Positions 4,820 to 36,584 of a stretch of DNA of 36,584 nucleotides are shown in pieces. The stretch covers positions 1 through 36,584 of the forward strand of contig JAGSHB010000048.1 of assembly GCA_023954815.1 (NCBI GenBank). The letters are read 5' to 3'. The stretch is from Myxococcales bacterium. Lineage in GTDB: Bacteria; Myxococcota_A; UBA9042. Made by a program: the position numbers and the translations under genes. A model generated the notes under the pieces. It had not been told where the DNA came from. It saw only the letters and a list, made by a program, of their open reading frames with translations, and did no database searches. Each line of letters opens with the position of its first letter. The first letter of the stretch is position 1.

Positions 4820-4840
4820 TAGACACCCTGTCGATAAATG
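4820..4840 (+). promoter_or_regulatory. Putative operator 2 of the TetR unit, over the first ATG
   Basis: This is the second copy of the 21-base site, with GACA-N3-TGTC at 4822-4832 and the 13-base run CCTGTCGATAAAT at 4827-4839. It overlaps the ATG at 4838 and ends 30 bases before the GTG at 4871. A bound repressor here would block transcription close to the start of the regulator gene, as in autoregulation. Confidence 0.55.
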
Positions 4841-4870
4841 GCGACCAAACCGCTCACCAAGGACATTTGC

Positions 4871-5596
4871 GTGGCACGAACAGTAGACGAGCAACAGCAC
4901 GAGCAGATGACCTTGCGAGCATTTGAGGCCGTTCGAAAGGGCGGTGTCGCCGGTCTAAGCATGGCGCGAATCGCCCGTGATCTCGGGGTAAAACGATCGA
5001 CGCTGTACTGGTACTTCGGCAATCTCGGCGAGCTGTTCGAGGCGGTCTTGCGGGTGATTTTGGAGCGGCAGGCGATCTTTGTTGCCGGCGAGGTGGCGGA
5101 GCAAAGCCATCCGATCGATCAGATTTTGGCTTGGATTCACGGGGTCCAACGATTTTACGGCAAGGACCCCGAGCTCCTGCCGATTCTCATCCAGCTGTGG
5201 GCCGTGGGTCGGCCGGCGGAGCCTGAGCACGCCATTGCGGCGACCATCGCCCAGTTCGAGCCCCTGCGGCAGGCCGCGGTCGATGTGCTGGAGGAGGGCA
5301 TGCGCGACGGCACAGTGCTGCCCTGCGACCCGGGCACTGTGGTCGATTTGTGCGCGACGCTGATCGACGGATCTCTCATTCACCGGGTGAGTCGCAATCT
5401 GCAGCCAGATGCGGTGACGGCGCTCTTTGTTGCCTGTGTGCTCACGCCGCTCCGTAGTCCGACAACGCCTGGGTGCGAGCTCACTGGGGCCGACCTGGAG
5501 CTACCTGAAGCTGGAACACGGTCGCGGCAAGCAGCGATGCAATCAGAGCAAACACCCCAAGAACGCGACAGGCGAACTTGGCTAGAGGAGGACTGA
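4871..5596 (+). CDS. TetR/AcrR-family transcriptional regulator
   Basis: A 241-residue DNA-binding protein. The N-terminal helix-turn-helix reads GVAGLSMARIARDLGVKRST followed by LYWYFGNLGELFEAVL, the classic TetR pattern. The rest is a helical ligand domain with an unusually polar tail of about 50 residues. Two starts are possible. The ATG at 4838 has no Shine-Dalgarno and lies inside an operator copy. The GTG at 4871 has AAGGA at 4858-4862, so I prefer it; the ATG would add 11 residues. The stop at 5594-5596 is one base before the ATG of the C45 hydrolase, so the two genes form an operon, and the hydrolase is the likely main target besides autoregulation. The ligand is unknown. Confidence 0.88.
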   Translation: MARTVDEQQHEQMTLRAFEAVRKGGVAGLSMARIARDLGVKRSTLYWYFGNLGELFEAVLRVILERQAIFVAGEVAEQSHPIDQILAWIHGVQRFYGKDPELLPILIQLWAVGRPAEPEHAIAATIAQFEPLRQAAVDVLEEGMRDGTVLPCDPGTVVDLCATLIDGSLIHRVSRNLQPDAVTALFVACVLTPLRSPTTPGCELTGADLELPEAGTRSRQAAMQSEQTPQERDRRTWLEED

Positions 5597-5597
5597 C

Positions 5598-7364
5598 ATG
5601 GCCATGCATGACACCGTAGAGACCCCAGAATCCGTCGAGACGGCACAGACCGCGCCCCATCTGCCCCTCGCTATCTTCTCGCTGGCCGGCGACCAGGTGC
5701 AGATGGGCGCCCAACACGGCGCGCTCCTGCGGGCTGTCGGCGGGTGGCAACGCACGTTGGATTACTACCCACGCATGGTCGAGTCCATCGTCATTGGCCA
5801 GCGTAGCCATCCGGCCCAGGCGGCGTTGCCGTTGGCGCTGCGGCCGGTGGTCGGCCTAGCGTTGGACCGCCTCCATAAGCGTCGCGATCCATTCTTTCGT
5901 GCGCGCACGGAGGCGTTTTACGAGGCCCTTGGTGTGCCGAAAAATCAGGCGAAGTACATCGGCGTGATGGATGTGCTGCAAAACGTCATCGGCCTCGCCG
6001 GGCGTGTTGGTGTGGGCGATATCAGCGAGCGGGCCATGGAGATCGCGCCAGCAGCCTGTTCAACGCTGGCTGTTTGGGGAGACGCGACCGAAGACGGGCG
6101 ACTGCTCCACGCTCGCAACTTCGACTTTCCGGGTGCGGGCGTGTGGGAGCAGGCGCCCAGCGTCGTGTTTTGCACGCCAAAGAGCGGCCTACGCTATGGG
6201 TTTGTGACCACACGCGGCGCAGACGTGCCGGCGGTGAGCGTGTTCAATGAAGCGGGGCTGTGCCTGACGATCCATACGCGGTTTCATAAGGATATCAATT
6301 TCAGCGGAAACCTCGCGGTAGACATCTGCCATCGCGTCGCGCTCCACGCTCGGACGCTAGCCGACGCCGTACAGCTGCTGAAGGAGACCGATAGCGCATC
6401 TAGCTGGGGTATTTTGGTCTCTCATGACCGTTCGGCGGCGTTGGTCGAGATGACTGCGGGGCAGTTCGCGGTGACCTATCCCGATACGGACCAACCGTGG
6501 CTGAGCTGCACCAATCGCTACATGGCCCCCCATCTGCAAGGCGGAGAGTTGGAGCCAAGCGCTGGATTCCTGATGCACAGTGATGGTCGATGGGCAGCGC
6601 TCGAACGCCGGGCCCAGGCCGCAGTGGCCCAAAATCCGCTGTCGATTGAACATCTACAATCGCTGCTCGGCGACCACGGCGACCACGGCGAGGAGGGCCC
6701 AGGGAGCCGCGCATCTGGCGGTATCTTGGCGCAGTGCAATGGCGTGCATTCGGTGGTCATCGATCCCGAGCGGCAGACCGTCGATGTCTCCGTCGGTGAG
6801 GTCCCCACCGGACACGGGCCCTATGTGCGCATTCCATGGCGTTGGCAGGACTCACCAGGTGTCGAATCCATGGATCTAGGACAGATCCGCACGCAGCACA
6901 CGCCGACCCAGCGCCATAGAAATGGCCGTGTAGGCCAAGCGTACCAGCAGTTTCTGACGGCAGCTCGCATCGAGATGCACGCGGGCCATGCGACAGATGC
7001 CGAAGTCGCTGTGGAACAAGCCTGTGCGTTGGACCCGAAAGAGTCTTCATATCGGCTACTGCTGGCGGGCTACCGACTGCGGCGGCGCGATCCAGCGGGA
7101 GCACTAGCCCACTTGACGAAGGCGCTCACGACGGAATACGCACCCTTTTACCGTGCACGATTGCTGCTGTGGGCCAGTCGTGCAGCTGAGTTGACAGGCA
7201 ACGCGGTGCAGGCCCAAACCCTGCGCGCCGAGCTGCTGGCCCTTCGACACAGTCACATTGGTCGCTATCAAAGCGCGGCACAGAAAGAGTCACAGTCCCC
7301 GCTGCCTGGTCGGCGGCTATTTCGCACCCGCATTCAAGTGCAGCTCTGTGATCTGGCGGCGTAG
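5598..7364 (+). CDS. C45-family autoproteolytic hydrolase/acyltransferase with a TPR-like tail
   Basis: A 588-residue Ntn-hydrolase. The core motif is PAACSTLAVWGDATEDG followed by LLHARNFDF, as in the penicillin acyltransferase-like C45 peptidases. These cut themselves before a Cys and use it as the N-terminal nucleophile; here that is Cys154. The start is the ATG at 5598 with GAGGAGG nine bases upstream. There is no signal peptide, so it is probably cytosolic. Residues about 450-570 are Ala/Leu-rich helical repeats that resemble TPRs, an addition to the usual family length of about 350. Members cleave or form amide bonds in acyl-amino acids or beta-lactam-like substrates; the substrate here is open. 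It is co-transcribed with the TetR gene in front. Confidence 0.82.
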   Translation: MAMHDTVETPESVETAQTAPHLPLAIFSLAGDQVQMGAQHGALLRAVGGWQRTLDYYPRMVESIVIGQRSHPAQAALPLALRPVVGLALDRLHKRRDPFFRARTEAFYEALGVPKNQAKYIGVMDVLQNVIGLAGRVGVGDISERAMEIAPAACSTLAVWGDATEDGRLLHARNFDFPGAGVWEQAPSVVFCTPKSGLRYGFVTTRGADVPAVSVFNEAGLCLTIHTRFHKDINFSGNLAVDICHRVALHARTLADAVQLLKETDSASSWGILVSHDRSAALVEMTAGQFAVTYPDTDQPWLSCTNRYMAPHLQGGELEPSAGFLMHSDGRWAALERRAQAAVAQNPLSIEHLQSLLGDHGDHGEEGPGSRASGGILAQCNGVHSVVIDPERQTVDVSVGEVPTGHGPYVRIPWRWQDSPGVESMDLGQIRTQHTPTQRHRNGRVGQAYQQFLTAARIEMHAGHATDAEVAVEQACALDPKESSYRLLLAGYRLRRRDPAGALAHLTKALTTEYAPFYRARLLLWASRAAELTGNAVQAQTLRAELLALRHSHIGRYQSAAQKESQSPLPGRRLFRTRIQVQLCDLAA

Positions 7365-7389: not shown

Positions 7390-7854
7390 TTATGTGGGTG
7401 CAGCGCTGAGCTCCTGTAGTCGCCGTGTCATGAGGTCGAGGCGGTCCAGCGCGATGCCAGCGAGCGGACGCCGATTGGCTGGCTGGCCCATCGCTGTTGC
7501 GAGCCGGTCGGCGTAGTCATCCGGGCATAAGATGACGATCTGGTCGGCCGCTTGCAGGCCGAGATCGCGGGCCTGTTCGCTCAAGCGCTGCGGCGAAATC
7601 ACCGGGTCGTCCTCACGCGAAAACGTGACGTCGTAGTCCCCAGGCACCTCGTCGTCTGGACGCAACAGGCCGTGAAGGGCCGATAGCACAAGCCACTCGT
7701 CCGCATGGTGCTGCGCGTAGGCCACGGCAGCGTGATGAAGCGGACTCGTGTACGCGAGGCGAGCGGGCAGCGGGCCAAGGTCGGGTGCGGTATGCCACGC
7801 TTTCTCACGGCTACACGGGACGATGGCGACAACTTTGCCTGCGTAGAAACTCAC
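7390..7854 (-). CDS. DUF6884-like protein
   Basis: A 154-residue protein. The opening VVAIVPCSREKAWHTAP, then PARLAYTSPLHHAA, DEWLVLSALHGLLRPDDEV and PGDYDVT match the pattern of DUF6884: a Cys-containing first strand, YTSPLF-like, W-(I/L)LSA-HGLL and PYD. The family has a Rossmann-like fold and no settled function as far as I know. The start is a GTG at 7854 that overlaps the stop of the upstream HTH-TPR gene (GTGA), so translation is coupled. The end is 25 bases from the convergent C45 gene. The coupling suggests that it works with the membrane HTH-TPR protein; its activity cannot be stated. Confidence 0.75.
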   Translation of the reverse strand: MSFYAGKVVAIVPCSREKAWHTAPDLGPLPARLAYTSPLHHAAVAYAQHHADEWLVLSALHGLLRPDDEVPGDYDVTFSREDDPVISPQRLSEQARDLGLQAADQIVILCPDDYADRLATAMGQPANRRPLAGIALDRLDLMTRRLQELSAAPT

Positions 7855-9716
7855 GCGCAGGCGTCGATGGGCGCCTTCGGGTCCGAGTCATCTTTGACCG
7901 GCACCTTCGGATCGGAGTCGTCGTCCGTCGGTTTTTTCGGATCGGAGCTGATCTTGTTCTTGCACGCCTTCGTGGTGGCCACATGCTTCGGATCGGAACC
8001 GACAGTCTTCGGGTCAGAACCCAATTTCTTGGGGTCGGAACTCACGCTCTTGGGATCCGAGCTCACGCTCTTCGGGTCAGAGGCCGTCTTCTTGGGATCC
8101 GAGCTCACAGTCTTGGGATCGGAGTTCAACTTCTTCGGGTCAGAATTGACCTGCTTGGGATCGGAGCTCGCTTTTTTGGGGTCAGAAGCGATCTGCTTGG
8201 GATCGGAATTGACCTGTTTGGGGTCGGACCGCAGCCGCTTCGGATCCGAGCCCACCTTCTTTGGGTCACTTGCGGCATGGCCGATGCTACCCAGTTGGTC
8301 GACATTCAACTCAAACTCGATGTCGTCGCCGCGGCCTGAATCGAATCCCAGGCGGTTGGACGAATCAACGCAGCCAGGGAACCAAGCGACGGCCATCACC
8401 AGGGCCAATGCGTTGAGCCACGGCGCACGAAGCAGCCAGCCCAAGCGCGCTGAACGGGGGTCGGGATCGCCCTCCCGGGCCCGCTGAACCACAGGCTGCA
8501 ACACCTCGGCGTGACGAATACCGTCGCGGTACACCCAGTCGAGCACCGCGTCGTACTGCACGTCCGACTTCTTCTGCATGCCAACGTGCTCGTAAAATGC
8601 GAGACGCAGGACCTCAGCCATGCTCATCAACAATGGGTCACCAGCAGCGCTCGAAGCAGAGGCCGCCTTTTTCACGAAGCGCTGACACTTCATGATGTCG
8701 TCTTGACCCAAGTAGGCCCAAGCGCGGCGATTGTGCAGACGAGCCTCGACGGTGGCCGAGAGCTCGCGCTGCTCCGCCAGGACATCGAGGCGCGCGTGGG
8801 CAGCCTCAAAATCACCGGCGCGAATCTCCAACATCGCAAGGTCGGTCGCGATGGCTTGCTCATCGACCCGCACGCGCCCCGACGTGACCCTGGCGTAAGC
8901 GGCCAAGGCCTTGTGGTAAGACTCGCCAGCCAACTCCGCGAAGCGCTCGCCGTGCTGCCGCAGACTCTTTTGCTCGTACAGGTCACCAAAACCGTGCCAG
9001 CACTTGCCATCGAGCACCGGCGACCGGGCCAGCACCCCGGCGTGAAGGGCGCGGCTCTCATTGAGTACACGCAGAGCCATATCCAAGTGGCCACGACGAC
9101 GGTAGATCGTGGCGCGCTCAATCTCGGCGGCAACGATGGACTCCTCGATGAGCGCTTCCCCGCCGTGCTCTAGCTCCAAGAACAGGTTCATCGCGTCATC
9201 GACAAAGCGCAGAGCGTCGTCGATGAATCCGGGGTAAGTACCGTGCAAACGAACCAGCTTGCCGATGAGCAAGCTCATCTCCGCACGCACATGCAGGCTC
9301 GTGCGGTCCGTGTGCCCCATGGCGCGTTCGTAGAGACGAACGGCGCCCTGAAGAGCATACATGTCCTCGTCGAGGTCGTAGGCCTCCACCACTTCGTCCG
9401 CTTCGGCACGCGTGGGCGGCGCGTCGCTGAACTCCAGCGGCAGCAGGTCGTCTTCGAACTCGATGAGCAAACGGGCGACATGGCGACCGACGTCAACGAC
9501 GTTGGCGAGCTGCTCGGCGTAGCGTTGGCGCGTGCCTGAGTCCCCGTGAAGGATGCGGTGGATCTGGCTCACATTCTTGGAAGCACCGAAGCGACTACGG
9601 GTACGCTCTGCTAACTCACGGTCGCACAAACCGAACACTTCGCGGCGGCGATTGAGCACTGCGACGAGCGCTGGGTAGCGTCCTTCTTGACGACGATCGG
9701 TACTGCTGCGTGCCAT
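7851..9716 (-). CDS. HTH-TPR-transmembrane protein with a C-terminal SDPK heptad array
   Basis: A 621-residue protein of unusual build. The ATG at 9716 is chosen because GGAGG lies six bases upstream; a longer frame to 9860 lacks this. Residues about 15-70 (LCDRELAERTRSRFGAS, then VSQIHRILHGDSGTRQRY) look like a Cro/XRE-type helix-turn-helix. Residues about 100-420 are TPR-like helices with YERAMGHTD, EIERATIYRRRGHLDMALRV and HNRRAWAYLGQDD. A single hydrophobic segment lies at about 427-446. From residue 483 on there are 17 SDPK motifs, the first 14 in a strict 7-residue period. The predicted topology puts HTH and TPRs inside and the Pro/Lys/Asp tail outside the inner membrane. It is coupled to the DUF6884 gene. 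I know no named family with this architecture; a membrane-bound regulator is an inference. Confidence 0.82.
   Translation of the reverse strand: MARSSTDRRQEGRYPALVAVLNRRREVFGLCDRELAERTRSRFGASKNVSQIHRILHGDSGTRQRYAEQLANVVDVGRHVARLLIEFEDDLLPLEFSDAPPTRAEADEVVEAYDLDEDMYALQGAVRLYERAMGHTDRTSLHVRAEMSLLIGKLVRLHGTYPGFIDDALRFVDDAMNLFLELEHGGEALIEESIVAAEIERATIYRRRGHLDMALRVLNESRALHAGVLARSPVLDGKCWHGFGDLYEQKSLRQHGERFAELAGESYHKALAAYARVTSGRVRVDEQAIATDLAMLEIRAGDFEAAHARLDVLAEQRELSATVEARLHNRRAWAYLGQDDIMKCQRFVKKAASASSAAGDPLLMSMAEVLRLAFYEHVGMQKKSDVQYDAVLDWVYRDGIRHAEVLQPVVQRAREGDPDPRSARLGWLLRAPWLNALALVMAVAWFPGCVDSSNRLGFDSGRGDDIEFELNVDQLGSIGHAASDPKKVGSDPKRLRSDPKQVNSDPKQIASDPKKASSDPKQVNSDPKKLNSDPKTVSSDPKKTASDPKSVSSDPKSVSSDPKKLGSDPKTVGSDPKHVATTKACKNKISSDPKKPTDDDSDPKVPVKDDSDPKAPIDACA
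7986..8270 (-). repeat. 21-base tandem repeats coding for 14 SDPK heptads
   Basis: Fourteen consecutive 21-base units encode SDPK plus three variable residues. On the plus strand they appear as repeated CTTnGG(A/G)TC(G/A)GA blocks. Synonymous codons vary between units, and some units are closer to each other than the rest, for example the two SDPKSVS copies. This suggests repeated local duplication followed by selection on the protein. Three more SDPK motifs lie outside this period towards the C-terminus (7860-7940). Confidence 0.9.
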
Positions 9717-9722
9717 TGGGGC

Positions 9723-9734
9723 CTCCGATCGGAG
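9723..9734. promoter_or_regulatory. Perfect 12-base palindrome over the ribosome binding site of the HTH-TPR gene
   Basis: CTCCGATCGGAG is a perfect palindrome that includes the GGAGG Shine-Dalgarno of the minus-strand gene. A second inverted repeat, CGGAGC-N5-GCTCCG at 9730-9746, overlaps it. Both could hide the ribosome binding site in RNA or serve as a protein operator. It lies in the 252-base divergent region shared with the ankyrin gene; I see nothing else convincing in that region. Confidence 0.4.
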
Positions 9735-9968
9735 CGCGCGGCTCCGGGATATCGACTGGCGGGCGCAGGGGCGCCGGCTGCCAGAGGGGGCGCAGGGTCG
9801 CAGAATCGCTCCAAGATGCCCAGAGTTTGCTGTATCCGGTGGGGTGTGGCGCGTGTGCAAGGATGCAAGAACGCGGTTCCGCGGCCGATTTTCGGTGTTT
9901 TAGCGCGCTTGTGGTTGACGGCGGGGGCCGTGAGTCCTACCTCTTTGTGTGCCGATCGGGAGGGGACC

Positions 9969-10799: not shown

Positions 10800-11783
10800 C
10801 TACGAACGGGACTGATCGGTGAGCACAGGCCGCGGTTGGCCGGCCAGAATCTGGAAGAACGCCTCACTTTCTGCCCACTTTGCCGCGTGATGAGCCCGCC
10901 AGACTGGCAGCGGGTGGCTCCGCGCGCCCTCGTCGAGCATGTCTGTGACGCGTAGCAACAGGTCACCATCTCGCATCTGCTCGGCGCGCTCCGCCTGGGC
11001 CAAGAACGCGTCCGGGGACAGCTCCTTCATAAAGCGGGAGGAGCCACCGGCGAGGGCCATCTCCACCCGAATGTGGGCATCCAGATCGCCGATTGCCAAT
11101 AGACCTCCCCGATCGGCAGATAGCTCGCTCATCTGATACCAGCGCAGCAGCGCCACCTCGACGGGCTTGATCAAGAGCGATCCGATGGAGAAGAACCGGT
11201 CGACGAGCCCGACCCCGCCGGCCATCAGCAGCCGCGCCAAGGTGCGGTAGAGCGCGTGACCGAGGCGTACGTGGGTCAATTCATGGCCGAGCACCGCCTG
11301 CACACCGGTGTCATCGAGCAGGTCCAACGTCGCGGTCGTCACGACGATGAAGGGCGCGCCCGCTCCCGTCGCCCAGGCGTTGACCACCGGACTCTGCACC
11401 ACGTACAGCGGCGTCGGGCTCATGGCCAACCGGTCCGCAGCCTGGGTGTGGAGCCGCCAGAGCGTCGGAAGCTGATTGGAGCCGACCTCGATCGCGCCGC
11501 CGAGGTAGCGAAAGCGCGCGACCTTGTCGACGGTGCGCGCCATGACTGAACTCAGCAGCTGATCGACCTTCGGCAACGCCTTGAGAACGGCGAGCGTGTC
11601 GCGGTCCCAGGGGTGCGCCAGATCGTCGTCGTGCAAGTCACTGAGCGGCTCTCCCGCCACGCGCAGCAACCTACCGCCGCATTTTCCGCAGGTGGGTTTG
11701 CTCAGATCTTTGAGGGCGCGCTGGACCGGAACGCGATTTCGGCCGCTGCAAAGACGGCAGGTCAACGTATGGGCATGTGTCAT
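10800..11783 (-). CDS. M48-family metalloprotease with an N-terminal TrxC-like zinc ribbon
   Basis: A 327-residue protein. The peptidase motif GHELTHVRLGH has zinc ligands His167 and His171 and catalytic Glu168; SELSADRGG supplies the third ligand Glu220. NAWATGAGAPFIVVTTATLDLL before it is typical for M48. The first 40 residues are a zinc ribbon with Cys9, Cys12, Cys32 and Cys35. The spacing and the words NRVP and CGKCGG closely resemble the N-terminal ribbon of thioredoxin 2 (TrxC), which responds to redox state. Hydrophobic stretches around residues 175-215 may touch the membrane. Its ATG overlaps the stop of the upstream membrane-protein gene (ATGA), so the pair is translated together. 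A redox-controlled protease is an inference from the ribbon. Confidence 0.88.
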   Translation of the reverse strand: MTHAHTLTCRLCSGRNRVPVQRALKDLSKPTCGKCGGRLLRVAGEPLSDLHDDDLAHPWDRDTLAVLKALPKVDQLLSSVMARTVDKVARFRYLGGAIEVGSNQLPTLWRLHTQAADRLAMSPTPLYVVQSPVVNAWATGAGAPFIVVTTATLDLLDDTGVQAVLGHELTHVRLGHALYRTLARLLMAGGVGLVDRFFSIGSLLIKPVEVALLRWYQMSELSADRGGLLAIGDLDAHIRVEMALAGGSSRFMKELSPDAFLAQAERAEQMRDGDLLLRVTDMLDEGARSHPLPVWRAHHAAKWAESEAFFQILAGQPRPVLTDQSRS

Positions 11784-13309
11784 AACTTGGAGTCTGACAT
11801 ATCTCCGACAGGGTGTGTGCCCTCAGGTTCGGCCATCCGCAACCGGCGCAACCCGCCGCGGTCGATCAACAGCTCACCTTCCCGCACCAAGGCCGCGCCG
11901 CTGCTCTCATCATGCAGCGTGCAGCGGACGTGTAGGCCATAGAGCTTGCGAATCGACGCCATGTGGACCCGACCGTCGGAGCGCGTCACGGGCACATCGC
12001 GGCGGCCGTGATCCAACCTGGGAAACAGCGCGCTGAGATCATAGCGCATGACGTGTTTGACCCCGCCCACACCCCAATCGTTGGGCACCGCCAAGCCATG
12101 TTGTTCGAGTCGCATCGAGACCGTCAGCGCGACCACGCTCACCGTCTTGCCGAGCGCGGGATTGAGCGGGTCGTGGCGCATCACCTGCTCTGCGCGCAGG
12201 TTCTCCCGCGAAATCAGGAGCCTACCGCGAGCGCGATCGATCCGGCGTTGCAGGTGCAGCCTCACCACTTTGTCGGCGATACCGTCGCGCACGCGCCGGG
12301 TGAGCCAACCGCGACCGATCTCTTTGATGCGATCTTTCACCGCGTACAGCACGCCCGCGACGGCACCAGCCATGATCATCGTGACCATGCTCATGCCACC
12401 GGTGATGAGCTGATTCATGTAAGCAACGTGCCATGCAAAGGCCCACGACGACGCAACAATGGCCACAAACGCGGCGATCCAGTGGCCTAAGCGGTCGTCT
12501 GGCTTGAAGCCATCGGCATCGAGCCACAACAGCTGATGAAAGTGCTTCTTGAGCGCGCTCCGGCGACGCAACCAACGCTCCAGCCCCTTGCGACCCTCAC
12601 CCCGCGGCGTTGGCCAGCCTTGCTCCCTTCGGTAGGCACGCTCGGTGACGATGGCGGCTGTGAGTCGAGCCAAGCCAGGAGAATCGGCCGGCAAGGTGTC
12701 GCGTAATCGAGCAAAGGTGCTCAGCATCGCCACCGACAAATACTCGGCCGCCAGACTGGCCTCAACCCGCACACCCTCGGTACCGCCATCGCCCGTACGG
12801 AGGACAATGGCGCGACGGGCCTGGATATCATTGACCAAGCGTTCGATCGCAGCGCTCGCGTCTTCTTCACGGGCAATGACGAGACGCACCAGCCGCTCGA
12901 GCCGCTTCAGCCGACGCCCACCGAGTAGCGCCTCGTGGCGAATGTCGTCGATAACGCTGCGCGCTTGGGTGGCACGCACAGCCCGGTCAGGCGTCTGCAG
13001 GCGGGTGCGGGCACGAAAGGCCTCCCACAGCGGATGCTTGACCCAGAGGTGCTCGGGTACGTCGACCGTCAACTCAACAGCGTAGTTCCGGCGTTGACCA
13101 GGTTTGGCGAGCGGCGCCGACGCGACCCACTCGACCCGGGTCGTGTCGTGGATACCGATGTCCAGGCAGTAGCCGGTCGCTGGCGCGGACTTGTCCGAAG
13201 GCCATTTGGCCCCGGCGTCCGCGTCGATCGCTGCGGCACCCTTTTTCACGAGGGCAACGGGGTTCTCGCCCGTATTTGTTGCCAGTTTTAGAGCTACCGT
13301 GCGCGTCAT
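11780..13309 (-). CDS. Two-TM membrane protein of unknown function, partner of the M48 peptidase
   Basis: A 509-residue protein without a signal peptide. I use the ATG at 13309 with GGAG about ten bases upstream; the frame also has a TTG one codon earlier. Residues 1-270 are soluble and rich in Arg and Ala, with helices such as RLKRLERLVRLVIAREEDAS. Two membrane segments lie at about 273-297 and 300-322 with a very short turn (ITGGMS). The C-terminal 180 residues are basic and have strand-like parts, including VHMASIRKLYGLHVRCTL. I recognise no family. The ATGA overlap with the M48 gene is the best clue: it may be a substrate, anchor or regulator of that protease. A PhoB-type direct repeat lies 44-61 bases upstream. 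Confidence 0.8.
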   Translation of the reverse strand: MTRTVALKLATNTGENPVALVKKGAAAIDADAGAKWPSDKSAPATGYCLDIGIHDTTRVEWVASAPLAKPGQRRNYAVELTVDVPEHLWVKHPLWEAFRARTRLQTPDRAVRATQARSVIDDIRHEALLGGRRLKRLERLVRLVIAREEDASAAIERLVNDIQARRAIVLRTGDGGTEGVRVEASLAAEYLSVAMLSTFARLRDTLPADSPGLARLTAAIVTERAYRREQGWPTPRGEGRKGLERWLRRRSALKKHFHQLLWLDADGFKPDDRLGHWIAAFVAIVASSWAFAWHVAYMNQLITGGMSMVTMIMAGAVAGVLYAVKDRIKEIGRGWLTRRVRDGIADKVVRLHLQRRIDRARGRLLISRENLRAEQVMRHDPLNPALGKTVSVVALTVSMRLEQHGLAVPNDWGVGGVKHVMRYDLSALFPRLDHGRRDVPVTRSDGRVHMASIRKLYGLHVRCTLHDESSGAALVREGELLIDRGGLRRLRMAEPEGTHPVGDMSDSKL

Positions 13310-13352
13310 CAAACCGTCTCCAGACCGCCCAGGGTAGCGATCTCCGGCCGAT

Positions 13353-20818: not shown

Positions 20819-23800
20819 ATGGCGTCCGACCTTTGTTTCCGATTTTCTCGGATCAGCCTCTTGTTGGCACTACTGCTCGGCCTATTCCTGAGTATTGGTT
20901 GTTCGGGGAGCGACCCTCAGCCTCCAACGGGCGGAGCTGACACGATCGGCGCGACCGATACGGGCGTGGCAACCAGCGATGCGGTTGAAGACAGTACATC
21001 GGCGTCGGATGCTGCCGACGGCGAGGACGCAAACGGAAAGACAGACGGCGGGAACTCCGACAGTGGAAACACAGACGGCGGAACCGCGGACGCAGGTCCC
21101 ACGTGCCCCGGCGCTGCGGACTGCGCATGCAAGGAAGATAAGGACTGCACCGGCGGCACGTGTGCCATGGGGGCGAACGGCAAGTCCATCTGCGCCAAGC
21201 CGTGCAAAGAAGATGCAGACTGCGGCGACTTGGTCTGCGCCGATGGCAAGAGCGGCAAGGTCTGCGCGGACGGCAAAGTCGCCTTGTGTAGTCCCTGCAG
21301 CGCCAACGCCGATTGCGCCGTGGCTGGAGCCAAAGACGCGGCCTGTGTCGCGACCGGAGCCGAGGGCAACTTCTGCTCGGTAGGCTGCGCCAAGGACGCT
21401 GACTGCGGCGATGGCTACAGCTGCACCGACAGCAAAGATGTCGACGGTACAGCTGGCAAACGCTGCTTGCCGAAAGACAACAAGGCCTGCGGATGTTCGG
21501 GCTGGGCAACCGCAAAGGCGCTTTCCACGACGTGCTGGGCCGATGGCAAACCTGGGTGCACCGGCAAGCGTTCCTGCAGCGACAAGGGCCTGACCGCCTG
21601 TGATGCGGTGGCTGGCAAAGTGGAGATTTGCGACGGCGTAGACACGGACTGCGATGGCACGGCCGACAATGGCGACCTCTGCGACGACAAGAACCCCTGC
21701 ACCAAGGATAGCTGCGGTGGCAAAGCTGGCTGCAAGAACGCCGCTGACGATGCCGCCAAGTGCGACGACGGCGATAGCTGCACCGAAAAAGACGCCTGTA
21801 CAGGCGGAAAATGCGGGGGCGCGGCGAAGGTCTGCAATGACAACAAGCCGTGCACCGACGACAGCTGCGATAAAGCCAAGGGCTGCGTTGCGCTCCCCAA
21901 CACAGCGACCTGCACCGACGGTGATAGCTGCACCGAGAAAGACGGCTGCGCAGCTGGCGCATGCACCGGCAGCAAAATCACCTGCGATGATAAAAACGCA
22001 TGCACGGACGACAGTTGCGACCCGAAGAAGGGCTGCGTCCACCTGAACAATAAGATCGCCTGTAACGACGGTGACGCATGCACGGACAAGGACACCTGCA
22101 AGGAGGGCAAATGCACTTCGGTTGCCAAGGACTGCGACGACAAGAACCCTTGCACCACCGATATGTGCGACGCGAAGACCGGCTGCAAATCAGTGAACAA
22201 CTTCAGCACGTGCGATGACGGTGATGCCTGTACATCTTCGGATATGTGCAAGGACGGCAAGTGCCAAACGGGTGTCGTTAAATGCGTCGACGGCAAGGCG
22301 TGCACGAAAGATTCCTGCGACCCGAAGACCGGCATTTGCACCTACCCGAACGCCACCGACGGCAGCAAGTGCGATGACGGTAAAAAATGTACGATCTCGG
22401 ACGCTTGCGCCAAGGGAAAGTGCACTGGCGCAGCCAACAAGTGTGATGACAGCAACCCCTGTACGAGCGACAGTTGCAGCACAAGCAAGGGTTGCCTGCA
22501 CACTCCTGTGTGCATCGATGGTGATGCCTGCACATCCGACACCTGCGACACGAAGACCGGAAAGTGCGCCTACACGGCGATGTCGGAGTGCGGCAAGACG
22601 GCGTTCAAACTGCCGTACGCTGCGAGTTTCTCCTGCGGCTCTGCGGGTTCGAAGCTGTGGACGCTGACGGGTACGGCCGGTGGTCCGTCCTGGGCGGTCG
22701 ACAAAACGCCCGTCTCCCCAAAGCCCGTTCTGGGCGACTGCTCGCTGAACTTCAACAACGGCAAAGACTACAAGTGCCCCACGGGGGCGAAGCTCGTCAG
22801 TGGGACAGCGACCTCACCCAAGATCGATTTGACGGCTGCAGTGAATCCAGGTGTGGCCTTCAAATATGGTGGCAAGTGGGAGACGTTGAGCTACTACGAG
22901 AAGATGGAGCTCAAGGTGCTCGTGGAGGGCAGCAAAACGCCCGAGACGATTGGCCTATTCAAGAAGTACAGCTCGACTGGCTGGTTGACACGAGTCTACA
23001 GCCTCAACAAGTACGCCGGGAAGACGATCCAGCTCGTGTTTTCGTTCTGGACGAAAGACTGCTTCAACAACAGCGCGGTGGGACCGTTCATCGACGCGGT
23101 GGTCGTCTCAGCGGACACATGCGCAAGCGCGTCCCAGTGTGACGACAACAACCCATGCACGACGGATACCTGCGACAGCAAGACCAACAACTGTGCCCAC
23201 GCCAAGAAGACCTCCGGCGCCTGTGACGATGGTAAAAACTGCACAGTGAGCACGACCTGTCAGGCCGATGGCAAATGCGGTGGCGGCTCGCCCAAGTGCG
23301 ACGACGGCAACAGCTGCACCAAGAACACATGCGCGACGTCTACTGGCAAGTGTGGATTCTCACTGCTGAGTTCCGCCTGCGAAGACGGCAATCTGTGTTC
23401 GGTCGGCGATAAGTGCAAAGACGGGCTGTGCTTCGCTGGCGAGAACGCCAACTGCGATGACAACAACAGCTGCACAGTGGATGCCTGCGACAGCAAGTCC
23501 GGACTCTGTACCCACAAAGCGACGGCAGGTTGCGTGCCAACGTGCAAAACTGATGCAGATTGTGGCGACGGCAACCCGTGCACCACGGACGCGTGCGATG
23601 CCAAGACTAGCAAGTGCGTCAGCACCAAGCTAAAGGACGGTGCGATCTGCGGCGGCGCGAGCAGCTGCAAGGCCGGAACCTGCGGCCCAGCGGCGGTGAC
23701 CGGGTGGGCCAAGGCGCTGCGCTCTGGCGCTGACGCCAACCACACGTGCGTGCTGCACGCCAGCGGTCGCATCAGCTGCTGGGGTGACGGCTACGCCGGC

Positions 23801-26800
23801 CAACTAGGCAACGGCGCGAAGACCGACAGCGGCAAACCCGTCAACGTCGACGGCATCACCGACGCCACGGACGTCGTGCTCGGCAGCGCCCACACCTGCG
23901 CATTACACAAAGACGGCACCGTCAGCTGCTGGGGCGACAACGCCTACTACCAGGCGCTCGGTTCGTCGAAGACCGACAACACCAAACCGGTCAAGATCAC
24001 CGGCCTCAAGGATGTGGAGGCGCTAGCCGCCGGCCGCTACCACACGTGCGCGCTGGTCAAGGGCGGCACCGTCACCTGCTGGGGTCGCAACTACGACAAG
24101 GAGGTCGGCCCGACCGCGGCTAGCGGAGGCTCACAGAAACTGGAGCCGGTCCAAGGCCTGACGGGTGTGAGCGCGATCTTCGCCGGTGGCTTCTCGTCCT
24201 GCGCGATTCGCCAAGATGAGACGCTGTGGTGCTGGGGTCGCAATAGCTACTACCTAGCAGCGGGCGGTGACGACATCACCACCACCGGCGATCTGAAGGT
24301 GCCCACCCGTGATGGGCGGTTCACCGGCGTAACCACGGTGTCCATGGGGTACTACACCCGGTGTGTCGGTCTTAAGAACGGTCAGATGATTTGCGGCGCG
24401 TACAACAGCAACGGCCAGCTGGGCACGGGCGCAAAAAGCACCACGACCACCAAGAAGACGAGCCTCTGGAGCACGAGCGCAGCCCAGTTCGGCGTGGGTT
24501 ACTGGCACGTCGCGGCGATGGATGCAGCCGGACAGACCTGGGGAGCGGGTGACAACGCGCAGGGCCAGCTCGGCAACGGCAAGAAGACCGATAGCGCCAA
24601 GATTGTGGCGATGGGCATCGTATCGAAAGCGATTGAGATCGCGGTTGGCTACGAACATACGTGCATCTTGCGGGCCGACGGCACCGTCTGGTGCACCGGA
24701 GAGAACTCCGATGGTCAGCTCGGCATGGGCAAGATCGGCTCCACCTATGACAGCGCGCGCTATGTCCGCGTGGCGGATGCCAGCTGCCAGACCGACGGCA
24801 ACTGTCAGGACGACAACCTGTGCACCAAGCAGCAGTGCTCGCTCTCCGACGGGCTGTGCACGAGCAAGGCAGTCAAGGACATCGCATGCTCGGATGGGGA
24901 TGCTTGCACAGTGGATGACAAGTGCAACGACAAGGGAGTCTGCCTCGCCAAGCCCAAGAACTGCGCGGACGACGACGCCTGCACCATGGGTCCAGTTTGC
25001 AAGTTGGGCGCATGCAGCCACAGCTCGAACGTCGACTGCGACGATGGTAACGCCTGCACAACCGACGCATGCGACAAGAAGACCGGCGCGTGCAGCCACG
25101 CAAAGATCGCGGGCTGCGTGATTAAGTGCAGCACCGATGCCGGGTGCAAGAACAACAACCTCTGCACGACGGGCAAGTGCGTCAACGGAGGCTGCCAGGA
25201 GACGCCGGGCAACGATGGCGCGCTCTGCGCCGATGGTAAGACCTGCAGCAAGGGGGCGTGCGCGCCATTTGCCATCACTGGGTGGGCCAAGCAGATCTCG
25301 GCTCATCCCAGGTCGACCCACGCCTGCGCGCTCAAGACGGACGCCACCGTCGCGTGCTGGGGGTACAACTACTATGGCCAGCTTGGTGATGGCACCAAGA
25401 CCCAGCGCACCTCGCCAGTGGACGTCAAAGGGCTGACAGATGTCACGGCTGTGCAACTCGGTGGTCGGCACTCATGCGCCCTGCTCAAAGACACGACGGT
25501 CAAATGCTGGGGCTACAATACCTACGGACAGTTGGGCAATGGCACCACCAGCCACAGCAGCTCGCCAGTCGCGGTGAAGGGCCTCACCGGAGTCATCGAG
25601 CTCGCGGCAGGCTACGACAGCACCTGCGCGCTGAAGACCGACTCGACCGTGCACTGCTGGGGTCACAACTACGACGGCATGCTGGGCAACGGCCAGTCGG
25701 GCTACAACAAGAAGTCGCTGACGCCCATCCCGAACGGCCTCAATAGCATCAAGCACCTGTCCGGCGGCTACCGCCACTATTGCGCGCTGAAGAGCGACCA
25801 ATCCACTTGGTGCTGGGGCTACAACCTCTACCAGCAGGCCGTGCCTGGCACCTCGAGCTCCGACGTGCTCAAGCCGACACTGGCGAAGGGCTTGGCCAAG
25901 TCCACCGCGGTCGCGGCAGGCGGTAACCACACCTGCGTCGTGACGGCCGCGGGCGGCGTAAACTGCATCGGTCGCAACACCGACGGGCAGTTGGGCATGG
26001 GCGCCAAGTCACCGTCTGACTCCAACGACAAGGTCTACGCTGCCCTGGGAGTGAGCAACATCATCTCGCTGGCAGGCGGCTACTACCACACGGTCGCACT
26101 CGACAGCACCGGCCGTGCGTGGACTTGGGGGGATAACTCTCAGGGCGAGCTCGGTGACGGCACCAAGACGGACAACCCCACCCCCCAAAAGCTCAACACG
26201 CCCACTGGGGTCATCCAGGTCACAGCGGGTGACGACTTCACCTGCGCGCTGCTGAAGACCGGCTCGGTTTGGTGTGTCGGTGATAACAGCAACGGAGAGC
26301 TGGGCATTGGTAGCACCTCGGACAAGACCGACTTCGTGCGCACTGTCGACAAGGCGTGCCAGAAAGACATCGACTGCCAGATCGGCAGCGCTTGCTTCGC
26401 TGACACCTGTGACACCAAGACCGGGCTGTGCACCGAGGTCATCAACAAGGGCAAGGCTTGCGATGATGGCAAGCCCTGCACCGTAGGCGATGCTTGTGAT
26501 GACACGGGGGGTTGCGCGGCCAAACCCAAGACCTGTGACGATGGCGACGCCTGCACATTGCTGCCCAAGTGTGATGATAAGGACGGCTCTTGCAAGCAGT
26601 TGGCCAAGGTCAACTGTGACGACAAGAACCCGTGCACAACGGACAAGTGCGATGCAAAGACGGGCGCCTGCTCACACGCCGCGATCTCGGGCTGCAAGTG
26701 GACCTGTAAGTCCGACGCGGACTGCGACGACGGCAAGCCGTGCACCGCAGACAAGTGCCTCAGCGGTACGGGAACATGCGAGCAGAAACCTGGCGATGAC

Positions 26801-27937
26801 GGCGCGATCTGCGGCATCGGAGGGCTCTGCAAATCGGGCAGCTGTGGTCCGATCACGAAGGGCTTCGCCAAAGCCATCAGCTCCAACGAGTTCGGCTCTC
26901 ACACCTGCGCGCTCGGGCTCGCCAACAAGGTCTACTGCTGGGGCTACAACTTCTACGGTCAACTTGGCGATGGGACCACGACCAAGCGCAGCAAGCCGGT
27001 GCAGGTCAAGGACCTTGGCGATGCCTCGCAGATCTCTGCCGGCTACAACCACACCTGTGCGGTGTTGGCGTCGGGACGCGTGTCGTGTTGGGGCAACAAC
27101 TCCGATGGCCAGCTCGGCGATGGAACAACGACCAAACGCACCAAGCCGGTGACCGTCGATGGTCTCAACGACGTGTCTCGCGTCGGCGCGGGCGGCTACC
27201 ACTCGTGCGCTGTGAAGAAGAACGGGACCGTCTGGTGCTGGGGCAGAAACTCCGACGGCCAGTCCGGGAACGGCAAGACCTCGACCGCCGACGTGAAGAA
27301 GGCCAAGCAGGTGGCAGGTGTCGCAGGCGCAGTCGACATCGAGTTGGGTCGCTACACATCGTGCGCCTTGATGAAAGACGGCGCCGTGATGTGCTGGGGC
27401 TACAACACCTACACAGCCATCGGTCCGAACAAGGCCGATCAGAAGACGCCGATCGCCCTGCAGGGTCTGCCGCCGATGAGCCAGATCTCCCACGGCATGT
27501 ACACCTTCGGCGGCATCAGCAAGGCGAACATGGCTTGGGGTTCGGGCTTCAACAACCACGGGCAGACCGGTGTGGGGGACAAGAAGACGCCAGTGTGGCC
27601 ACCCAAGGTCGCCCTCATGAGCACGACGCCGATGCAGGTCTCTACGGGCTACTACATGGCCTACTTCCTCGACACGACCGGCCAAGCTTGGTCGGTGGGA
27701 TACAACCTATACGGCGGTCTCGGCAACGGCACGACGTCGTCCAACGAGAAGATCGCCAAGATCATCGGCGGCTCCAACGTAGTCGCTGTCTCCGTGCGCT
27801 ACCGCGGAGGCTGCTTGCTCAAGGCGGACGGCTCGGTGTGGTGTGTCGGCCGTGGCAATTACGGTCAAAACGGCAATGGCACGCTCTCCTCCACAGTCAA
27901 GAACCTTGTGAAGGTCTCCCCGCCAGTGGCACCGTAG
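20819..27937 (+). CDS. Giant Cys-rich lipoprotein with three 7-bladed RCC1 beta-propellers
   Basis: A 2372-residue surface protein. The ATG at 20819 has AAGGAG eight bases upstream. The signal peptide ends at LSIGC (Cys28), a lipobox. An Asp/Gly/Thr spacer follows to about residue 85. Residues 85-590 are repeated Cys units (CDDGDSCTEKDAC, CTDDSCD and similar), with a MopE-like CDGVDTDCDGTADN near residue 272. Residues about 595-768 form a non-repeated beta-rich domain (LPYAASFSCGSAGSKLW at its start). Three modules of Cys-rich stretch plus RCC1 propeller then follow, with propellers at about 960-1320, 1484-1844 and 2010-2372. Each has seven blades of the form HTCAL--DGTV-CWG-N--GQLG. Most blades carry a Cys pair, which suits an oxidising outer surface. 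Binding partners are unknown; adhesion or ligand binding is a guess. Confidence 0.93.
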   Translation: MASDLCFRFSRISLLLALLLGLFLSIGCSGSDPQPPTGGADTIGATDTGVATSDAVEDSTSASDAADGEDANGKTDGGNSDSGNTDGGTADAGPTCPGAADCACKEDKDCTGGTCAMGANGKSICAKPCKEDADCGDLVCADGKSGKVCADGKVALCSPCSANADCAVAGAKDAACVATGAEGNFCSVGCAKDADCGDGYSCTDSKDVDGTAGKRCLPKDNKACGCSGWATAKALSTTCWADGKPGCTGKRSCSDKGLTACDAVAGKVEICDGVDTDCDGTADNGDLCDDKNPCTKDSCGGKAGCKNAADDAAKCDDGDSCTEKDACTGGKCGGAAKVCNDNKPCTDDSCDKAKGCVALPNTATCTDGDSCTEKDGCAAGACTGSKITCDDKNACTDDSCDPKKGCVHLNNKIACNDGDACTDKDTCKEGKCTSVAKDCDDKNPCTTDMCDAKTGCKSVNNFSTCDDGDACTSSDMCKDGKCQTGVVKCVDGKACTKDSCDPKTGICTYPNATDGSKCDDGKKCTISDACAKGKCTGAANKCDDSNPCTSDSCSTSKGCLHTPVCIDGDACTSDTCDTKTGKCAYTAMSECGKTAFKLPYAASFSCGSAGSKLWTLTGTAGGPSWAVDKTPVSPKPVLGDCSLNFNNGKDYKCPTGAKLVSGTATSPKIDLTAAVNPGVAFKYGGKWETLSYYEKMELKVLVEGSKTPETIGLFKKYSSTGWLTRVYSLNKYAGKTIQLVFSFWTKDCFNNSAVGPFIDAVVVSADTCASASQCDDNNPCTTDTCDSKTNNCAHAKKTSGACDDGKNCTVSTTCQADGKCGGGSPKCDDGNSCTKNTCATSTGKCGFSLLSSACEDGNLCSVGDKCKDGLCFAGENANCDDNNSCTVDACDSKSGLCTHKATAGCVPTCKTDADCGDGNPCTTDACDAKTSKCVSTKLKDGAICGGASSCKAGTCGPAAVTGWAKALRSGADANHTCVLHASGRISCWGDGYAGQLGNGAKTDSGKPVNVDGITDATDVVLGSAHTCALHKDGTVSCWGDNAYYQALGSSKTDNTKPVKITGLKDVEALAAGRYHTCALVKGGTVTCWGRNYDKEVGPTAASGGSQKLEPVQGLTGVSAIFAGGFSSCAIRQDETLWCWGRNSYYLAAGGDDITTTGDLKVPTRDGRFTGVTTVSMGYYTRCVGLKNGQMICGAYNSNGQLGTGAKSTTTTKKTSLWSTSAAQFGVGYWHVAAMDAAGQTWGAGDNAQGQLGNGKKTDSAKIVAMGIVSKAIEIAVGYEHTCILRADGTVWCTGENSDGQLGMGKIGSTYDSARYVRVADASCQTDGNCQDDNLCTKQQCSLSDGLCTSKAVKDIACSDGDACTVDDKCNDKGVCLAKPKNCADDDACTMGPVCKLGACSHSSNVDCDDGNACTTDACDKKTGACSHAKIAGCVIKCSTDAGCKNNNLCTTGKCVNGGCQETPGNDGALCADGKTCSKGACAPFAITGWAKQISAHPRSTHACALKTDATVACWGYNYYGQLGDGTKTQRTSPVDVKGLTDVTAVQLGGRHSCALLKDTTVKCWGYNTYGQLGNGTTSHSSSPVAVKGLTGVIELAAGYDSTCALKTDSTVHCWGHNYDGMLGNGQSGYNKKSLTPIPNGLNSIKHLSGGYRHYCALKSDQSTWCWGYNLYQQAVPGTSSSDVLKPTLAKGLAKSTAVAAGGNHTCVVTAAGGVNCIGRNTDGQLGMGAKSPSDSNDKVYAALGVSNIISLAGGYYHTVALDSTGRAWTWGDNSQGELGDGTKTDNPTPQKLNTPTGVIQVTAGDDFTCALLKTGSVWCVGDNSNGELGIGSTSDKTDFVRTVDKACQKDIDCQIGSACFADTCDTKTGLCTEVINKGKACDDGKPCTVGDACDDTGGCAAKPKTCDDGDACTLLPKCDDKDGSCKQLAKVNCDDKNPCTTDKCDAKTGACSHAAISGCKWTCKSDADCDDGKPCTADKCLSGTGTCEQKPGDDGAICGIGGLCKSGSCGPITKGFAKAISSNEFGSHTCALGLANKVYCWGYNFYGQLGDGTTTKRSKPVQVKDLGDASQISAGYNHTCAVLASGRVSCWGNNSDGQLGDGTTTKRTKPVTVDGLNDVSRVGAGGYHSCAVKKNGTVWCWGRNSDGQSGNGKTSTADVKKAKQVAGVAGAVDIELGRYTSCALMKDGAVMCWGYNTYTAIGPNKADQKTPIALQGLPPMSQISHGMYTFGGISKANMAWGSGFNNHGQTGVGDKKTPVWPPKVALMSTTPMQVSTGYYMAYFLDTTGQAWSVGYNLYGGLGNGTTSSNEKIAKIIGGSNVVAVSVRYRGGCLLKADGSVWCVGRGNYGQNGNGTLSSTVKNLVKVSPPVAP
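23118..27937 (+). repeat. Threefold module of Cys-rich stretch plus RCC1 propeller
   Basis: The modules lie at about 23118-24785, 24786-26355 and 26356-27937, roughly 1.6 kb each. Each starts with Cys units like CDDGDACT and ends with a 7-bladed propeller. In all three propellers blade 6 has lost both Cys of the pair (AAMDAAGQTWGAG, VALDSTGRAWTWG, YFLDTTGQAWSVG), and blade 7 has the form VWC-G. This shared exception shows that a complete 7-blade unit was copied, rather than single blades added at random. Confidence 0.85.
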
Positions 27938-36389: not shown

Positions 36390-36584
36390 CTACCAACCGC
36401 CGTTGTCGTCGAAGTCCCCGCGGCCGCCGCCACCGCCACGTCCACCACGGCCGCCGCCGCCGCCGCGTCCTCCGCGACCACCGTCACGACCACCATAGCC
36501 GCCACGACCGCCATCGCGACCACCACGACCACCGCGACCGCCGTCGCGACTACCGCCACTGTCACGGCCACCATCACGTCCACC
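36390..36584 (-). CDS. C-terminal Gly/Arg-rich (RGG) tail of a protein cut by the window edge
   Basis: Sixty-four residues are visible before the TAG at 36392-36390. They consist almost only of GGR, GGRD and GGGGG units, for example GGRGGRGGRDGGRGGYGGRD, and end in GDFDDNGGW. Such RGG tails bind RNA and occur in bacterial RRM proteins and DEAD-box RNA helicases. Single-stranded DNA-binding proteins also have Gly-rich tails, but their acidic tip normally ends in DDDIPF-like residues, which is not the case here. The start and the folded domain lie outside the window, so the family cannot be fixed. This frame is chosen over a Val/Ala-rich frame on the same strand because the tail is low-complexity GGN coding with consistent Arg/Asp positions and a terminator follows its stop. 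Confidence 0.7.
   Translation of the reverse strand, partial: GGRDGGRDSGGSRDGGRGGRGGRDGGRGGYGGRDGGRGGRGGGGGRGGRGGGGGRGDFDDNGGW

Follow-up and report, generated by a model that had tools for sequence, protein, structure and literature searches.

What kind of protein joins a probable DNA-binding head, a TPR array, a hydrophobic stretch and a long, regular array of SDPK motifs in a single chain, and what might such a protein do? The question is raised by one gene of the window, that is, of the whole 36,584-nucleotide stretch of Myxococcales DNA analysed here:

7851..9716, minus strand: gene for a 621-aa protein with helix-turn-helix (HTH), TPR, internal lipobox-like signal and SDPK tail (ORF reading)
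9722..9726, minus strand: Shine-Dalgarno-like GGAGG (read from the sequence; the ATG of relatives is also preceded by a purine-rich site)

The reading frame opens with an ATG at 9716, has the GGAGG 5 nt upstream and ends at 7851. Its product runs from an XRE-like N-terminus through a TPR superhelix and a short hydrophobic segment into the SDPK tail. The initial annotation had found no family to which this architecture could be matched, and indeed the protein as a whole belongs to no known family. The order of parts is identical in all six orthologues, and the architecture they have in common is well supported. In its layout the protein would work much as a tethered regulator of the ToxR/CadC type does, with an RRNPPA-like head; what would be new are the internal lipobox and the SDPK tail. 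The answer we favour, with a confidence somewhat short of even, is that an HTH-TPR regulator tethered to the membrane has its tail exported in the manner of a lipoprotein, and that this export or the processing of the tail governs the regulator.

The gene is present in four of four genomes examined of its genus and in two other genera, giving six orthologues in three of the family's ten genera; the species that carry it are few, uncultured and myxobacteria-like. A scan of the genome collection returned the same orthologues. Among plasmids we found no relative, and outside the family the 379 genomes of the phylum yielded only weak partial matches to the TPR part. Matches to the tail alone in other genomes of the family (L007-L019) were rejected as homologues, being unrelated minisatellites or linkers of other proteins. 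As a side observation, genomes of the family are rich in minisatellites of 21 bp or nearly so at unrelated places (L008, L010, L013, L014, L018, L019); some of them can be read as SDPE/SDPK or DxxDA repeats, and L013 and L019 are lipoproteins with repeat linkers after the lipobox.

The part of the protein on which its interpretation turns is the hydrophobic stretch:

8373..8447, minus strand: signal-like segment, residues 424-448, with the n-region RLGWLLRAPWL followed by a hydrophobic core (orthologue alignment)
8370..8372, minus strand: Cys449, invariant and always preceded by Gly or Ala, the proposed lipidation and cleavage site (orthologue alignment)

A membrane segment had been annotated here, and the hydrophobic stretch is real; its character, however, fits a lipoprotein-type signal better, with the n-region conserved and the core not. 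The stretch (approximately residues 428-449) is short, its best 19-residue Kyte-Doolittle mean being 1.56 (1.5-1.95 among the orthologues). Pairwise identity is 0.88 over residues 424-434, where the n-region has the consensus RL.WL.R..WL, as against 0.66 in the TPR part, 0.37 in the linker 409-423, 0.34 in the core and 0.23 in residues 450-481; at Cys449 it is 1.0. Only Cys449 and L470 are invariant within the 47 fast-changing residues 435-481. That this region diverges and yet keeps the cysteine together with its Gly or Ala was counted in favour of a lipoprotein signal. The segments end in FPGC, LPAC, LPAC, MGGC, ANGC and VAGC, so that Gly or Ala at -1, Cys at +1 and an uncharged hydrophobic core, as in type II signals, are found in six of six orthologues, and the distance from the last Arg to the cysteine is signal-peptide-like in all of them (18-19 residues). 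The strict PROSITE-type lipobox is found in two (SMGGC, GVAGC), the remaining four having Pro or Asn at -2, and processing is therefore something that we infer; within the same genus, one ordinary candidate lipoprotein likewise has Pro at -2 (TAPAC). Net charge is positive upstream of the segment and negative downstream, which together with the cysteine pattern points to a presumed N-in, C-out topology.

Lipoprotein signals are normally N-terminal, whereas this putative one starts at residue 424. In the literature we found neither a precedent for a large cytoplasmic domain ahead of a lipobox nor a regulator with an internal lipobox. A separately translated tail was ruled out: no GTG, TTG or ATG is conserved ahead of the segment, and hence the tail is made as part of a single polypeptide. 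A gene for Lsp and genes for M50 site-2 proteases are present in the genome, but as they occur in most bacteria their presence shows only that such a route is available. In the six orthologues Cys449 is followed by V, T, T, V, V or E and never by Asp or Lys. Lys at +2 marks inner-membrane lipoproteins in Myxococcus xanthus (PMC3222651), and sorting to the outer membrane would thus be the default guess. Taken as a whole, the segment has the look of a type II (lipoprotein) signal placed internally, which we consider a better reading than a plain transmembrane anchor.

A plain anchor is nevertheless the strongest competitor, although we regard it as rather unlikely. The protein would then be a single-pass regulator of CadC/ToxR-like layout, with an uncleaved segment and an activity set by disulphides of Cys449 and the tail cysteines. 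A single hydrophobic segment, the N-in/C-out charge pattern and the recurrence of cysteines on the periplasmic side all agree with it, and there is a precedent in CadC, whose periplasmic disulphide is functional (PMC3096576). Like ToxR and CadC, the protein would have a cytoplasmic HTH, one membrane segment, a C-terminal periplasmic part and cysteines that may form disulphides. The segment is short for an anchor, however (Kyte-Doolittle 1.5-1.95), and its C-terminal half is unconserved save for the Gly/Ala-Cys pair, which is the pattern of a lipobox. Moreover, ToxR and CadC carry a winged, OmpR-type HTH instead of an XRE-like HTH with TPR, and the protein described here lacks a folded periplasmic sensor and has a lipobox-like cysteine after the segment. 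Trans_reg_C, the winged HTH, gave no match in it, which places it outside the ToxR/CadC group.

Ahead of the segment lies the presumed cytoplasmic half of the protein:

9543..9668, minus strand: XRE-like HTH (residues 17-58), enlarged by about 6 residues near the turn (XRE profile alignment, conservation)
8487..9428, minus strand: TPR superhelix, residues ~97-410 (AlphaFold model, structure matches)

An HTH had been proposed for the N-terminus, and the evidence for it is mixed. An XRE profile, built from XRE domains at loci of the same family, matches residues 17-58 at P 0.0026, a better value than any of the 100 column shuffles or the 7 TPR windows gave, and the HTH is the most conserved domain of the orthologue alignment, with a pairwise identity of 0.88. 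On the other hand, no Pfam HTH reached its cut-off in the protein, AlphaFold models the first 96 residues as helical with low confidence, and the HTH modelled by itself (pLDDT 56) gave no significant match in a fold search. On balance an XRE-like HTH is likely. The TPR array proposed earlier stands on firmer ground. The superhelix is modelled confidently over about residues 100-420, and its best matches among solved structures (APPBP2, MalT domain III, Rap, NprR, AimR) have Z values of 20-24, above the usual level for helical repeats, at a sequence identity of only about 10%. A sequence search of the PDB gave weak matches only, to bacterial kinesin-light-chain-like TPR. The TPR superhelix within a transcription regulator is shared with MalT (domain III, Z 22.4), which differs in being soluble, with an ATPase and a C-terminal LuxR-type HTH.

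The resemblance to Rap, NprR and AimR raises the possibility, which we consider improbable, of an RRNPPA-like receptor whose TPR part binds a peptide, perhaps the released signal remnant, the tail being a mere carrier. A probable XRE-like HTH followed by a TPR superhelix would give the protein the general shape of NprR, PlcR, PrgX, Rap and AimR, the Z values for Rap, NprR and AimR lie at 20-22, and enterococcal pheromones are released from lipoprotein precursors through cleavage by type II signal peptidase and Eep (PMC10202637). But MalT (in the same range), APPBP2 and other TPR proteins match equally well, and a tie of this sort at an identity of about 10% allows a statement about the fold only. 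The protein has no clear sequence-level similarity to the RRNPPA group, whose known members are soluble proteins of Firmicutes and their phages (known systems come from Firmicutes; PMC9765709), whereas here a signal segment and a tail are attached.

The exported part, in the reading that we prefer, would be the tail:

7986..8270, minus strand: 14 strict SDPK heptads, residues 483-577 (motif positions in the translation)
7962..7964, minus strand: tail Cys585 (translation, orthologue alignment)
7875..7946, minus strand: three more SDPK motifs at residues 591, 601 and 611, spacing 10 (translation)
7857..7859, minus strand: C-terminal Cys620 in the DACA end (translation, orthologue alignment)

The count given earlier (17 SDPK motifs in the 621-aa protein, the first 14 of them exactly 7 residues apart) was reproduced from the translation; 2000 shuffles of the same protein contained SDPK 0.0125 times on average and once at most. 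The array occurs a single time in the 6.4 Mb genome, and a literature search found nothing on SDPK repeat proteins. In the codons of D, P and K the first and second positions are identical throughout (identity 1.0), whereas the third positions vary (0.42-0.74 in these codons, 0.31-0.74 in the array), which indicates that the array is not a fresh duplication of DNA and that the peptide has been kept rather than the DNA. Five copies use TCN for serine in the majority of their units and the sixth, distant one (G014) uses AGC, which argues that SDPK itself is under selection. In G009 and G014 octads (SDPKAPAA) outnumber heptads. Hence the array seems to have been turned over repeatedly while selection retained SDPK.

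AlphaFold leaves the tail disordered (pLDDT < 50), in agreement with the earlier view of an extended tail that is no coiled coil; charge-balanced and Pro-spaced as it is in the protein of the window, the array should take an extended form. For the roles proposed earlier, measuring envelope distance, touching peptidoglycan or binding a polyanion, the analysis turned up no evidence, and polyanion binding is not favoured by that same balance, as 31 basic residues stand against 30 acidic ones after Cys449. No folded sensor domain was found in the tail. Absence of the tail in close homologues, which the initial annotation had named as telling against its view, was looked for, and every orthologue has the tail, with 173-204 residues after the cysteine in the five complete copies. 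The two tail cysteines were likewise confirmed and recur near the C-terminus of the complete copies, which makes a disulphide input possible. The reading of the tail as a neutral coding minisatellite on an ordinary cytoplasmic HTH-TPR protein, at most peripherally bound to the membrane, is disfavoured and very improbable: the host genomes do hold many 21-bp minisatellites in various frames, but the length of the tail and its cysteine are kept in all five complete copies, SDPK survives codon turnover as well as octad and heptad spacing, and the array is unique within the genome.

What the regulator might control is suggested by its neighbourhood:

7390..7854, minus strand: DUF6884 gene with CSREK (CxxxK) and LSALHG (LSAxxG), overlapping the regulator gene by 4 nt (GTGA) (Pfam, motifs)
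9855..9868, strand not assigned: candidate operator dyad TTGCATCCTTGCAC (written for the minus strand), between the regulator gene and a divergent ankyrin gene

The DUF6884 gene, which had no place in the initial annotation, is a clear member of its family (PF21818; 61.9 bits, cut-off 30) and has both motifs described by the authors of the Pfam entry, who relate DUF6884 to YaaA and note a positively charged cleft; B. subtilis YfjM has been associated with DNA lesions (all PMC11701544). The genes overlap by 4 nt here and in G001, are adjacent in G002 and lie about 60 nt apart in G003. In G014, which belongs to another genus, the first letters of a contig encode the last part of a tail (SDPKAPADEMGCAA, then a stop) and DUF6884 follows, so that the pair has been kept across genera. 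DUF6884 passes the cut-off in five of 22 genomes of the family, all of which carry the regulator; G009 has the regulator without DUF6884. The two genes appear to form an operon in two genera, and our literature search found no description of this pairing. A second, weaker DUF6884-like match is present in three genomes of the genus (G003:C18, G001:C84, G000:C226; L082-L084).

The dyad has the consensus TTGCA-N4-TGCAA; five of the six orthologues, all but G001, have it 109-165 bp upstream of their ATG. It ranks best among all 5-mer dyads and was equalled in 3 of 200 dinucleotide shuffles, the orthologue sequences being related. As a putative operator it is suggestive only. Exact sites number 2-8 per genome with no clear enrichment over the control, and hence no regulon could be defined by the dyad. 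In G009 a second exact copy (TTGCACCGATGCAA; L086 148-161, G009:C869) marks a possible second target, a large lipoprotein-like ORF that it precedes or at whose start it lies.

Taking these parts together, we infer lipidation, cleavage, DNA binding, target and signal of the protein, and the following scheme might apply. The protein would be a one-component regulator in which a cytoplasmic XRE-like HTH and TPR superhelix are fused to a lipoprotein, an internal lipoprotein-type signal carrying the C-terminal tail over the inner membrane. Lgt would lipidate Cys449 and Lsp would probably cut before it. The SDPK tail, a disordered and charge-balanced rod or spacer held by its lipid anchor, would then move on, likely to the outer membrane, while what remains of the signal helix would keep the HTH-TPR half at the membrane. 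Whether this half is tethered or freed, possibly by a site-2 protease, might depend on how the tail is exported and processed, or on the redox state of the two recurring cysteines. Once freed, the HTH-TPR half could act on the dyad in its own promoter and so on the operon shared with DUF6884, a putative DNA-damage protein. Ordinary lipoproteins with low-complexity linkers (L013, L019) resemble this part of the protein in having Arg, a hydrophobic core, Gly/Ala-Cys and a repetitive Asp/Pro-rich stretch; they differ in that the signal here is internal, after about 420 residues, and that nothing folded follows the tail.

In a stronger version, to which we give a low probability, lipoprotein maturation is itself the switch: processing by Lgt and Lsp, followed by a site-2 protease, would free or arm the HTH-TPR head, and gene expression would then read the state of lipoprotein export directly. 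More generally, the architecture and the DUF6884 neighbour suggest that gene control may be coupled to the export of lipoproteins. Should the internal signal be real, a regulator and a lipoprotein would come from a single gene, and the cut separating the two would link envelope export to gene control in a single step; the DUF6884 partner suggests a link from the state of the envelope to the protection of DNA. As head-first lipoproteins escape predictors of N-terminal signals, others may be hidden in genomes.

Some further features of the window may be recorded. Positions 4838-7364 hold a TetR regulator and then a protein of 588 aa that weakly matches an acyl-transferase (AAT) and ends in a TPR-like part; the pair is kept near the HTH-TPR gene in G002 and G003. 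At 10800-13312 an M48 peptidase with a zinc-ribbon-like N-terminus overlaps by 4 nt a 510-aa protein with hydrophobic segments and zero Pfam matches, which is kept in the same two genomes. A 2372-aa lipoprotein candidate (lipobox LSIGC), the mature part of which opens with low complexity, is encoded at 20819-27937, and short GC-rich tandem repeats are found at the end of the window (36418-36554).
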